50,411 nucleotides of DNA from positions 1-50,411 of the forward strand of contig CACHTK010000005.1 in assembly GCA_902582765.1 (NCBI GenBank), written 5' to 3'. Positions 6,122-34,895 of this stretch are shown piece after piece. A program made the position numbers and the translations under genes. A model generated the notes under the pieces. It ran no database searches. It worked only from the letters and a program-made list of their open reading frames with translations, and had not been told where the DNA came from. Position 1 is the stretch's first letter. The number at the start of each line of letters is the position of its first letter. The stretch comes from an uncultured Pelagibacteraceae bacterium (GTDB taxonomy: Bacteria; Pseudomonadota; Alphaproteobacteria; Pelagibacterales; Pelagibacteraceae).

Positions 6122-8773
6122 CTAAAAGTTTAGAGAAATGTCTCTATGTATTGAATTACATTTTGAGACATAAATCGCTTGCTCTTTTGTAAGTTTTGAT
6201 TGCAGACGTAATCCAATAGTTTCACTAATAATCTTATCATGAGCATTTATCTTATCCATATACTTTTTCTTGAAATTTTTTCTCCAATCTATCTCTTGTT
6301 GGAATAATACATAAGTATCATTTGCTGAGCTTTGAAGTTTTTCAAAATCAACCTCATCTTCATCCATAAGGGTAATTAAATAATCTAACTTATCAGCAAA
6401 TTCATCAGATCCTGAAATTTCTCCAACTTTTTCAAAAATATTATCAATAAATTCTATTGCATCAATATAACCTCTATTATCTATTTTTGATTTAAGAAGT
6501 TTCATATCTTGACTTAATTCCTCAAACTTTTCTCCATGATTTATAAATTCCTTAATTAATAATAAATCTTCATATGCATTATCCACAGTCTTTTTATATT
6601 TTTTGACAGCTAAATTTTTTGCTTTGTTAATTTTATTAAATTCATCATTTTTAGATTTCCACTCTTGAGGAATTGTATTTTGAATTTCCTCTATCTCTAA
6701 CTTAACATTTTCAATTTTTTGCAAAATTTTATTTTTATCTGATACATCTTCATCATCAAGATTTCTTATCTCAGCTTTGTATTTATCTATCTTTTTATTT
6801 AATTTTAATATTTTCTTTTGTTTTTTTCTTGTTTTGAAATGTAAGTCTCTATAGTCGAAAGCATAGTCATCATAGATTGACTGAGCACTCTTAACTTCAT
6901 TAACTAATTCAAAGGAATATTTAGAATTATCAACATGACGTTGAAAATAGCTTAATTTATCTGCTGGTAGATTTGCTAAAATGATATCATCAAATTCATT
7001 AATACTAGTTTTAATTTGATCTCCATTAGTTTCAAAGTTTGCAAATTTGTATTCTTGCAAACAGTATTGAAGTTTAGGGTTCATTGGAGGTGGAGCAACA
7101 TTAGAGGTTAAATAAACTCTGTTAGGCAGATAATTAACAAGACTTGGATAAAAACCAACAATACCAAGGCCAATTAGCTGTAGTGCTATAAAAGGTACAA
7201 CGCCCTTCCAGATGTCCAATGTCTGAATTATTTTTGGAGCCACTCCTTTTAGATAAAACAAAGCAAACCCAAATGGAGGAGTTAAGAATGATGTTTGTAG
7301 ATTTACACCTATCATTACTCCTAGCCATACTGCTGTAACATTCGCTCCTGTTTCTGCAAGTAATATTGGTGCAATAATCGGAACTACAACAACAGCTATT
7401 TCTATAAAGTCTAAAAAGAAGCCTAGAAGGAAAATTACAACCATAACAACAATAAACTGTGTCCAGAAACCTCCAGGCAGATCTTGAAGAAAATCTCTTA
7501 CCAACTCTTCTCCACCAAATGCTCTAAATCCTGATGTAAGCATTGCAGCACCTAATAGAATTATGAAAACCATTGAAGTGGTAATACAAGTTTCTGTAAC
7601 AACTTCTTTTAGTACATTGTCTGTTTTATAACTTCTCCAGAAGCTCCATGCTATTCCATAAACAAGTATAATTACAAAAAATGCTGTAATGTAGATTGCA
7701 CCCAAATCTCTTTCTTCTAAATTTTTTACATTGAGTTCATAAGTTGAAGCCAGAAAAGTAATAGGTATTATTGATCCTATAATTAGTATTAAAGGATAAA
7801 ATGCACTTTTCTTACCTTCAAACAACCTATATCCAGCCATTAAAGTTGCGCCAATTGCTCCAATAGAACCAGCTTGGTTTACAGTTGCAATACCCATTAA
7901 TATTGATCCTAATACAGCAAATATAAGTGCAAGAGGAGGGATGATAATAACTATAACTCTCAACCAAAATTTAAAATCAAAAGTTCCTTTAAATGGAACA
8001 GGGGGTGCAACTCCCTTCTTAATTCTTGCATAAATGAAAACATATATCATATACAATGCTACTAGAACTAGTCCTGGTAACAAAGCGCCCAAGAACATAT
8101 CTCCAGCACTAGATGATCCAACTCTAAACTCACCAGGCATATTAAATTCACCAGTGATTGCTTTATAATCGTTTTGTCTAATATTATTAGCAACATCTGA
8201 GGCACTAGCTAATTGATCAGCAATAATAATTAAAACGATTGAAGGGGGAATTATCTGTCCAAGAGTTCCAGATGAACAAACAATACCACTCGCAAGTTTA
8301 CGGTCATAATTATTATTTAACATTGTCGGTAAAGAAATTAGTCCCATTGCGATAACGGTAGCTCCAACTATTCCAGTTGTAGCAGCAAGTAGGGCTCCTA
8401 CAAAAATTACCGATATACCAAGTCCACCAGGAATAGGACCAAATAGTTGGCCCATAGTAATTAGTAAGTCCTCAGCTATTTTAGATTTCTGAAGCATTAT
8501 CCCCATGAAAATAAACAAAGGAATTGCAATTAAAGTGTCTGTTTCAACATCCCAATAGTTACTTCTAAAATTAGTAATTCCAGCGACTAACCATTCTATA
8601 GGTCCATCGACTGTGAAATAAGCACTAGAGTCTCCTTCAAATATTGCTCCAAAAAATGCTGCTAAACCAATGGAAATTATTGCTGAACCAGGAAGAGCAA
8701 AAGCCACTGGATAGCCTGAGGCAAGTGCTGCGATCATAATTAAAACCAGAATTGCTAAAAATAATAATTCCAT
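6122..8773 (-). CDS. dctM: TRAP transporter large permease (DctM) with long C-terminal coiled-coil-like extension
   Basis: Residues 1 to about 550 DctM-like (LAILVLIMIAALASGYPVAFALPGSA; IPLFIFMGIMLQKSKIAEDLL; TTGIVGATVIAMGLISLPTML); residues about 560-883 hydrophilic and Lys/Glu-rich. Confidence 0.88.
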   Translation of the reverse strand: MELLFLAILVLIMIAALASGYPVAFALPGSAIISIGLAAFFGAIFEGDSSAYFTVDGPIEWLVAGITNFRSNYWDVETDTLIAIPLFIFMGIMLQKSKIAEDLLITMGQLFGPIPGGLGISVIFVGALLAATTGIVGATVIAMGLISLPTMLNNNYDRKLASGIVCSSGTLGQIIPPSIVLIIIADQLASASDVANNIRQNDYKAITGEFNMPGEFRVGSSSAGDMFLGALLPGLVLVALYMIYVFIYARIKKGVAPPVPFKGTFDFKFWLRVIVIIIPPLALIFAVLGSILMGIATVNQAGSIGAIGATLMAGYRLFEGKKSAFYPLILIIGSIIPITFLASTYELNVKNLEERDLGAIYITAFFVIILVYGIAWSFWRSYKTDNVLKEVVTETCITTSMVFIILLGAAMLTSGFRAFGGEELVRDFLQDLPGGFWTQFIVVMVVIFLLGFFLDFIEIAVVVVPIIAPILLAETGANVTAVWLGVMIGVNLQTSFLTPPFGFALFYLKGVAPKIIQTLDIWKGVVPFIALQLIGLGIVGFYPSLVNYLPNRVYLTSNVAPPPMNPKLQYCLQEYKFANFETNGDQIKTSINEFDDIILANLPADKLSYFQRHVDNSKYSFELVNEVKSAQSIYDDYAFDYRDLHFKTRKKQKKILKLNKKIDKYKAEIRNLDDEDVSDKNKILQKIENVKLEIEEIQNTIPQEWKSKNDEFNKINKAKNLAVKKYKKTVDNAYEDLLLIKEFINHGEKFEELSQDMKLLKSKIDNRGYIDAIEFIDNIFEKVGEISGSDEFADKLDYLITLMDEDEVDFEKLQSSANDTYVLFQQEIDWRKNFKKKYMDKINAHDKIISETIGLRLQSKLTKEQAIYVSKCNSIHRDISLNF

Positions 8774-9819
8774 TAATTACTCTCGACTTTTTCTAATCTG
8801 ACTTGATCTGGACTGTCTGATTGAGTTTGATCTTCAATATTATTAAAAATAATTTTATGGCTACTGGACATAAAATAGCTAGTAAATTGTAATAGCATTG
8901 TGACAGCAAAAACTGCTAAATATACTGCCATCAAATAAAGAAGGTATAGTCCATTAGAACCTTGTTGTGTAACTTCAAAAGCAACTACAGGTCCATTAAT
9001 AATACTTGCTTTACCATTTAAACCTAAAAATAAAACTATTAAACAAAGAGGGACCCCTAATAACGCTGAACCAACCATATTGGTCCAAGCCTTTTTTTTC
9101 TCACTAAAAGACGAATAAAGTACGTCAACTCTAACATGACCCTCGTGAATTAAAGCATAAGCACTTGCAAATAAATATAAAGCTGCATACCAAAATCTAA
9201 CTAAATCTCCTTGAAAAGCTTGTTCATAAGAGAAAACAAATCTAGATAAAACAATTACAAATTCACTTAAGACTACCAATACTGCAAGCCATATAAAACC
9301 AACAGATTTTGTAAAGTAACCTATTATAAATGAAACTAATATTATTGGAAAATGTATGTATGTTATTCTTTCTGGAGCTTTTACCATGAAAGCTTTAACC
9401 TCAGGACTAAATATGGCTTCCCACAATCTTTCAACGACCATAAATGAAATTATGAAATCAGCTAAACCAACTAAAAATACAGCCCAAAAAGATCCTCTAA
9501 TTAAATACGCTGAAAATTTTGATAAAATTTTTGAATCGTCAACTAATGTTTGTGAGTATGTCTTGAAGACATAAAAGATAACTGAGAGAATACAAACTAC
9601 ATATATTAGAATTTGAATATAACCATAAGTTAAATCGGAAGACTCTAAAGACTTTTGCTTATAACCAAACAAATCATAATGAGAAAAAACTTTTTTAATG
9701 CCTGGCCAACCACCCCAAACTGTAAATAAGTTATTAATTAAAAATGCCAGAGTAAATGCTAGGACTGAGTAGCTTAAAACTCTCAAATAAGTAGACAATT
9801 TACTATTTTCTGGACCCAT
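8773..9819 (-). CDS. dctQ: TRAP transporter small permease (DctQ), enlarged form
   Basis: Between dctP and dctM; YALIHEGHVRVDVLYSSFSEKKKAWTNMVGSALLGVPLCLIVLF is DctQ-like; extra N-terminal TM segments. Confidence 0.8.
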   Translation of the reverse strand: MGPENSKLSTYLRVLSYSVLAFTLAFLINNLFTVWGGWPGIKKVFSHYDLFGYKQKSLESSDLTYGYIQILIYVVCILSVIFYVFKTYSQTLVDDSKILSKFSAYLIRGSFWAVFLVGLADFIISFMVVERLWEAIFSPEVKAFMVKAPERITYIHFPIILVSFIIGYFTKSVGFIWLAVLVVLSEFVIVLSRFVFSYEQAFQGDLVRFWYAALYLFASAYALIHEGHVRVDVLYSSFSEKKKAWTNMVGSALLGVPLCLIVLFLGLNGKASIINGPVVAFEVTQQGSNGLYLLYLMAVYLAVFAVTMLLQFTSYFMSSSHKIIFNNIEDQTQSDSPDQVRLEKVESN

Positions 9820-33400: not shown

Positions 33401-33423
33401 AAAAGACTCCAGTTGGGTTTTTT
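33401..33423 (+). terminator. Intrinsic terminator downstream of argG
   Basis: aaaagactc-cagtt-gggtttttt hairpin followed by T; it spans the listed ATG at 33413, so that start is unlikely. Confidence 0.65.
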
Positions 33424-33475: not shown

Positions 33476-34618
33476 ATGAATTTAAAACCAACAAGACAAA
33501 CAGCTATTGAAAATCTAAATATCTTCATTGAGAAAAATTTAGAGGATTATTCAAAACTAAGAAATTTTGACTTTGGTCCTGACAAAAGATCTAATACATC
33601 TTGCTTATCACCTTACATAGCACATGGGGTGATTAATGAAAAGGAGGTGATAAGAAAATCACTAGATAAATTTTCTTTTTCAAAAAATGAAAAATTTATT
33701 CAAGAAGTTCTATGGAGAACTTATTGGAAAGGATGGATGGAACTTCGATCTGGAGTATGGGATGACTATTTATTAGATTTAAAAATAATAAAAGAGGAAT
33801 TTAAAGATAATGGAGATTATTTAAATGCAATTAAAGGTAAAACTAAAATTGAATGCTTTAATGAATGGGTAAATGAATTAAAGACCTTTAATTATTTGCA
33901 TAACCATACAAGGATGTGGTTTGCAAGCATTTGGATATTTACACTAGAATTACCTTGGCAACTTGGTGCAGAATTTTTTATGCAACATTTGTATGATGGT
34001 GATACTGCATCAAATACTTTGGGTTGGCGTTGGGTAGCAGGTATTCAAACTCAAGGAAAACATTATCTTGCCAGTGAGTGGAATATTAAAAAATTTACAA
34101 ATAATAGATTTGAAAATACAAAACTTAACGAAAATGCACCCCCAATAATAAGTGATAAAAATTATACTATACTTCATAAAACTTTTGAAAATCCGATAAA
34201 TATTGAAGAGAAAAACTTGCTAGTTTTTGAAAATAACTTAGCATTTGAAATAACTGACTTTGCAATTCAAAAATTCAAAAAGATTTTTCTTATTGAAAAT
34301 AAAAATGAAAATAGAAATATTAAGCTCAGTGAAAATGTAATGAATTTTAAGGCTAGTTTAATTGAGGAACAAAAGAAAAGGTTAGTGGAAAAATCAATTA
34401 ATTGCGAAATTATCGATATAAACGAAATTAAAAACTTGGAAAATTGTTACTGTCTTTATCCAACTGTTGGAGAAAATTTAGATTACATAAATCAAAACTC
34501 ACAAAAAAATATTGAGTTTCTTTATAGAAAATTAGATCAAAATTCATGGAAGTTTTGTAACAAAGGTTTTTTTAACTTTAAAAAATATATTCCTAAAATA
34601 GTTGAAAACCTTGAATAA
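33476..34618 (+). CDS. Photolyase/cryptochrome-family protein with N-terminal FAD-binding domain and C-terminal Rossmann-like region (start corrected from 33413)
   Basis: NLKPTRQTAIENLNIFIEKNLEDYSKLRNFDFGP...TSCLSPYIAHGVINEKEV; VLWRTYWKGWMEL; NYLHNHTRMWFASIWIFTLELPWQLGAEFFMQHLYDGDTASNTLGWRWVAGIQTQGKHYL; no N-terminal antenna domain. Confidence 0.85.
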   Translation: MNLKPTRQTAIENLNIFIEKNLEDYSKLRNFDFGPDKRSNTSCLSPYIAHGVINEKEVIRKSLDKFSFSKNEKFIQEVLWRTYWKGWMELRSGVWDDYLLDLKIIKEEFKDNGDYLNAIKGKTKIECFNEWVNELKTFNYLHNHTRMWFASIWIFTLELPWQLGAEFFMQHLYDGDTASNTLGWRWVAGIQTQGKHYLASEWNIKKFTNNRFENTKLNENAPPIISDKNYTILHKTFENPINIEEKNLLVFENNLAFEITDFAIQKFKKIFLIENKNENRNIKLSENVMNFKASLIEEQKKRLVEKSINCEIIDINEIKNLENCYCLYPTVGENLDYINQNSQKNIEFLYRKLDQNSWKFCNKGFFNFKKYIPKIVENLE

Positions 34619-34643: not shown

Positions 34644-34895
34644 ATGAGAAAAAATGATATGCAAAACCTACAAATATTGAAAATTATCAATAATTTAAAA
34701 GGTAGAAAAAATTATGAGGAAAAAAAAGCCTCTAAGCTAGGGTTTAAATCTCTTTATGCATATTTTGAAAACAAACTTTTACAAGAAAAAATTACCCTAG
34801 AAGAAAGTGCAAAAGAGTTAGAAATAGCAAAGGGTGAAACAGAGTTATTAAAAGAAGAAAAGAGCAAGCCAAAAAAAACTTGTGGATGTTGTTAA
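34644..34895 (+). CDS. Small hydrophilic protein of unknown function ending in CGCC
   Basis: 83 aa, MRKNDMQNLQILKIINNLKGRKNYEEKKASKLGFKSLYAYFENKL...KSKPKKTCGCC; follows the photolyase-like gene by about 25 nt. Confidence 0.68.
   Translation: MRKNDMQNLQILKIINNLKGRKNYEEKKASKLGFKSLYAYFENKLLQEKITLEESAKELEIAKGETELLKEEKSKPKKTCGCC

Follow-up and report, generated by a model that had tools for sequence, protein, structure and literature searches.

A probable NewPHL-type CPD photolyase with its two domains in reverse order in a SAR11 genome

A photolyase gene with the FAD domain first

The 50,411-nucleotide stretch of DNA analysed here (the window) carries a gene whose product is very probably a CPD photolyase of the NewPHL type (also SPL or Phr7), an enzyme that would repair cyclobutane pyrimidine dimers in the light, probably on single-stranded DNA. 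Few groups in sunlit seawater are as abundant as the SAR11 bacteria, and most of the sampled genomes of the genus carry the reversed gene, some of them without a class I photolyase. Should enzymes of this type prove strictly specific for single-stranded DNA, those SAR11 cells would be without an ordinary CPD photolyase. The relatives of the protein also point to a route by which the order of two domains in an enzyme could have been reversed. The gene and its features were located as follows.

33476..34618, + strand: NewPHL/SPL/Phr7-type photolyase gene (probable), 380 aa
33476..34120, + strand: N-terminal helical FAD domain, residues 1-215; matched by PF03441 at 33698-34069, without the final third of a canonical FAD domain
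33704..33718, + strand: E77, W80 and R81, equivalent to the CPD-binding E274, W277 and R278 of E. coli PhrB by alignment to 1dnp; invariant
33902..33916, + strand: N143-H-x-R146-M147, equivalent to N341/R342/R344/M345 of E. coli PhrB by alignment to 1dnp
33956..33958, + strand: W161, counterpart of W359 in the E. coli Trp chain by alignment to 1dnp; invariant
33995..34033, + strand: D174-G-D176...N180...W184-R-W186, FAD-binding by alignment to 1dnp; N180 matches the flavin-switch Asn (N378) and W184 the proximal Trp (W382)
34121..34207, + strand: linker, residues 216-244, cysteine-free and without an Fe-S cluster motif (sequence and model)
34208..34615, + strand: C-terminal alpha/beta "Z-domain", residues 245-380 (model, Foldseek and profile comparison)
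34562..34594, + strand: conserved C-terminal motif KGFFxFKxxIP, residues 363-373 (alignment of relatives)

The open reading frame was present at these coordinates with a product of 380 residues. The same frame can also be read from an upstream TTG at 33413; the ATG at 33476 is the start used by relatives. The immediate upstream neighbour, argG, ends 100 bp before this ATG, so no antenna domain was lost from the 5' side. PF03441 matched residues 75-198 with an E-value of 1.7e-13, and no PF00875 match was found anywhere in the protein, which agrees with the initial annotation that the protein starts within the helical FAD domain and lacks an N-terminal antenna domain. The PF03441 alignment spanned only positions 2-127 of the 203 in the profile; the protein is therefore also short of the final third of a canonical FAD domain, a feature that the initial annotation did not mention. 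The Pfam search gave no significant match in the C-terminal part, and weak matches there to PF00127 and MCM7 were taken as chance.

The AlphaFold2 model, built with 53 SAR11 sequences (pLDDT 90.1), was all-helical over residues 7-207 and alternated between strands and helices from residue 247. The swapped domain order was thus borne out, and the predicted start of the C-terminal domain lies close to the "about 243" first proposed. When the whole model was searched with Foldseek, class III and class I photolyases matched over about 220-245 columns, and no structure spanning both domains was among the matches listed. The Z-domain, of about 135 aa, is an alpha/beta domain conserved together with its KGFFxFKxxIP motif in SAR11 and in other Alphaproteobacteria.

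The closest named relatives were from uncultured Pelagibacteraceae, with up to 92% identity, and the host genome was therefore assigned to SAR11; its assembly is about 71% complete. Full-length SAR11 relatives spanned the clade at 51-92% identity, and internal stops were absent from the homologue rows inspected, a subset of these relatives. The dN/dS ratio was far below 1 in both domains; for locus L061, dN was 0.035 and 0.055 in the two domains versus a dS of 0.53-0.54. As judged from these sequence comparisons, purifying selection acts on both domains, and the reversed architecture, carried by full-length homologues across SAR11 with dN/dS well below 1, is evidently not an accident of a single sequence. 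Viral contigs, phage records and viral structures gave only ordinary photolyases or nothing, and a viral source was rejected.

Origin of the C-terminal domain

The initial annotation had read the C-terminal part as a counterpart of the photolyase antenna domain. Modelled alone, this domain reached a pLDDT of 87.8, and its best PDB match in Foldseek was 8ijy, the 6-4 photolyase of Synechococcus elongatus (E 7.6e-3, probability 1.00, TM 0.59 over 137 columns). Cryptochrome B (CryB; TM 0.55) and PhrB (TM 0.57) were also found, and the highest query TM-scores among the matches listed belonged to photolyases. None of these matches reached an E-value of 0.001, and non-photolyase Rossmann-like folds (universal-stress, CARF and dehydrogenase) ranked close behind. 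The Foldseek table is silent on which part of each target was aligned; we take the antenna domain to be the only alpha/beta domain of the matched photolyase structures.

A direct match of the C-terminal segment to PF00875, by which the antenna resemblance was to be checked, failed. When the Z-domain profile was aligned with the PF00875 antenna profile the score was 10.1, while 200 column shuffles reached 13.7; the alignment was collinear over 135 columns and was dropped as evidence because its score fell within the shuffle range. A comparison with the single Deinococcus sequence was uninformative, and a deeper Phr5-like profile, made of the alpha/beta parts of the sister clade, was substituted. 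This profile matched the canonical antenna domain with an E-value of 8.6e-10 and a score of 52.7 (maximum of 100 shuffles, 15.1), and the Z-domain matched the Phr5-like profile with an E-value of 2.6e-5 and a score of 28.1 (maximum of 100 shuffles, 15.0), a step to which hhalign gave a probability of only 49%. The profile comparisons lend moderate support to a shared origin of Z-domain and antenna domain, with the link running via a Phr5-like intermediate. The resemblance to an antenna domain therefore holds through the 6-4 photolyase match and the Phr5-like profile, but not as a significant direct match to PF00875.

It is also conceivable, if somewhat unlikely, that the C-terminal part has no kinship with the antenna domain and is a Rossmann-like domain acquired by the FAD domain in a separate event. 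The lack of a direct significant sequence match to PF00875 and the universal-stress, CARF and dehydrogenase folds near the top of the Foldseek results would fit such an origin. Against it stand the profile chain through the Phr5-like proteins, the top TM-scores of photolyases to the query among the matches listed, and the sister clade, which encodes a Phr5-like protein right after its FAD gene. On the most likely reading, the Z-domain is related to the antenna domain but has degenerated and changed its place in the protein.

Sister clade and two-gene arrangement

The tree built from FAD domains placed every Z-domain protein in a single group (99/99), where the window protein stands together with proteins of like architecture from Ruegeria and Peteryoungia. 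This group adjoined FAD-only proteins and Deinococcus proteins, apart from canonical photolyases. Several short FAD-only genes of Alphaproteobacteria were followed directly by an alpha/beta gene of about 140 codons, mostly overlapping or a few bases apart. Pairs of a FAD-only gene and a small antenna-related alpha/beta gene were seen at loci L058 (2148-2564), L060 (2139-2597), L056, L057, L059, L165, L166, L167, L168 and L169, and in several of these alphaproteobacterial pairs the two genes share a few bases. Both parts are fused in a protein of Deinococcus psychrotolerans (locus L145), whose C-terminal part matched PF00875 with an E-value of 1.5e-4, below the Pfam gathering score. Members of the sister clade carry a cysteine motif where the SAR11 protein (residues 198-245) has none.

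Distribution in the genus and gene neighbourhood

Among genus genomes of at least 90% completeness, the reversed gene was present in 72 of 78. A class I-like PF03441 match was absent from 20 of the 78, two of them of 99% completeness, and all 20 carry the reversed gene. Nine genomes were also searched for PF00875: it was absent from all four that were checked from the group lacking class I (among them one single-contig and one three-contig genome, both of 99% completeness) and present in the other five. A DPRP (PF04244) protein, of a family that we take to be 6-4 type photolyases, was found in 9/9. With no PF00875 protein and the DPRP protein assigned to the 6-4 type, the reversed gene is the only candidate CPD photolyase in the checked genomes without class I, and on these searches the reversed enzyme may be the only CPD photolyase of all 20.

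The SAR11 enzyme, as a member of this class, could instead repair double- as well as single-stranded DNA and be what the many SAR11 lineages without class I mainly use for CPD photorepair. The 20 genomes that have the reversed gene and no class I-like match would fit, as would the four checked genomes without PF00875, of which the single-contig and the three-contig genome hold only the reversed gene and one DPRP-type protein. We consider this reading unlikely, since the two characterised NewPHLs are reported as specific for single-stranded DNA, and SAR11 could rely on excision repair. Preference for single-stranded DNA remains our favoured reading. It is quite possible, if short of probable, that two things hold together: that the Z-domain derives from an antenna domain by decay and relocation, by way of a two-gene stage (FAD gene plus alpha/beta gene) surviving in the sister clade, and that part of SAR11 has no CPD photolyase other than the reversed-order enzyme, supposedly specific for single strands.

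The photolyase gene was accompanied by argG and the two genes before it in 63-68 of 80 SAR11 loci. On its 3' side in the window lies an 83-aa open reading frame (34644-34895), found in only 11 of the 80 SAR11 loci examined. Two small membrane-protein genes lie between argG and the photolyase gene at L068 (2162-2991) and also at L069, L071 and L076; they are absent in the window. In Ruegeria sp. TM1040 (L141, 3721-5070) and Peteryoungia desertarenae (L144, 1159-2430) an AarF/ABC1/UbiB kinase gene adjoins the reversed photolyase gene. Reversed and DPRP-type genes lie about 3-8 kb apart in five SAR11 genomes (G365, G360, G235, G012 and G396), suggesting a photorepair neighbourhood in these genomes; in the window genome the two are on different contigs. 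The DPRP-type gene of the window genome (L172, 416-1913; genome G000, contig C2, about 7415-8912) consists of two overlapping frames of 152 and 366 aa, where relatives have one frame of about 500 aa; the split is a frameshift or a sequencing error.

Active-site residues and proposed function

Residue equivalences were read from the alignment to E. coli PhrB (1dnp), whose residues have known roles in CPD binding, the FAD switch and the Trp chain, and invariance was scored across 16 diverse relatives. N143, R146 and M147 (PhrB N341, R344 and M345) were invariant, as were N180 and W184 (PhrB N378 and W382). The position of PhrB R342 is His144 in the SAR11 protein, and that of the outer tryptophan of the E. 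coli chain, W306, is F109 and is not conserved.

By the proposed mechanism, the N-terminal helical domain would hold FAD in a U shape. Blue or UV-A light would excite reduced FADH-, and an electron would move from it to the cyclobutane pyrimidine dimer, for which E77, W80, R81, N143, R146 and M147 would form the binding site; the dimer would split and the electron return. Photoreduction of FAD would run via W184 and W161, and because the outer tryptophan is absent, the path to the surface would have to differ from the canonical one. The Z-domain probably covers the FAD site, taking the place of the C-terminal third that a canonical FAD domain has and this one lacks; nothing points to an antenna pigment bound by it. 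In the NewPHLs of Emmerich et al. (2020, NAR 48:12845), the C-terminal domain reportedly shields the FAD site from solvent. The substrate would be mainly single-stranded DNA by analogy with the characterised NewPHLs, substrate preference not being readable from sequence.

Photolyase-family proteins have repeatedly evolved into sensors, and the outer tryptophan of the classical chain is missing here, as might be expected of a cryptochrome-like blue-light photoreceptor; such a role is very improbable, since the CPD-binding residues E77, W80, N143, M147 and N180 match those of PhrB and do not vary among the diverse relatives compared, Pfam found no signalling domain, the SAR11 loci showed no conserved signalling neighbour, and characterised members of the class repair DNA. 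The conserved CPD-repair residues, as aligned, favour repair over sensing.

Comparison with known photolyases

The names NewPHL and SPL are used for short proteins with inverted domain topology (PMC13274461), and Phr7 is described as having its FAD domain at the N-terminus and a Z-domain at the C-terminus, and as lacking Fe-S cysteines (PMC9426592). The SAR11 protein likewise has an N-terminal FAD domain with no antenna domain before it, no Fe-S cluster cysteines (none in residues 198-245) and a C-terminal domain equated with the published Z-domain by described architecture. The class is thus one already described, assigned here by that architecture rather than by alignment to A8LJA9 and M7YZC8. 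The initial annotation had suggested a distinct light-dependent repair or sensory enzyme; distinctness from canonical photolyases stands, but the domain order is that of the characterised NewPHL/SPL/Phr7 proteins, and such a finding was what the initial annotation itself had named as refuting novelty.

The NewPHLs of Dinoroseobacter shibae and Methylobacterium mesophilicum (UniProt A8LJA9 and M7YZC8; Emmerich et al. 2020), reported second-hand in PMC9426592 and PMC13274461 as CPD photolyases specific for single-stranded DNA, resemble the SAR11 protein, as compared by description, in being short, with the FAD domain first, the Z-domain last and no antenna in front, and in having alphaproteobacterial hosts. 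Phr7 of high-light Prochlorococcus, as described in PMC9426592, shares the FAD domain followed by a Z-domain, the lack of Fe-S cysteines and a surface-ocean oligotroph as host; that host, however, is cyanobacterial.

Class I and III CPD photolyases (E. coli PhrB, 1dnp; Agrobacterium, 4u63) share the FAD fold and the CPD-binding and FAD-switch residues, but have the opposite domain order and full PF03441 and PF00875 domains. Membership in class I or III was rejected, as no N-terminal PF00875 domain was found before the FAD domain.

In the Phr4/Phr5 and Phr6 proteins of Synechococcus and Cyanobium (PMC9426592) and in the D. psychrotolerans protein, which lies in the sister clade of the Z-domain group in our tree, the FAD part also comes first and the alpha/beta part second. 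These proteins differ in having an Fe-S cysteine motif and a recognisable PF00875 domain, and some are split in two genes. A reverse-order Fe-S photolyase of this kind was rejected for the SAR11 protein, which lacks the four Fe-S cysteines and falls in a separate clade. The alphaproteobacterial gene pairs and the fused Deinococcus protein resemble the cyanobacterial Phr4/Phr5 and Phr6 arrangement as it is set out in PMC9426592.
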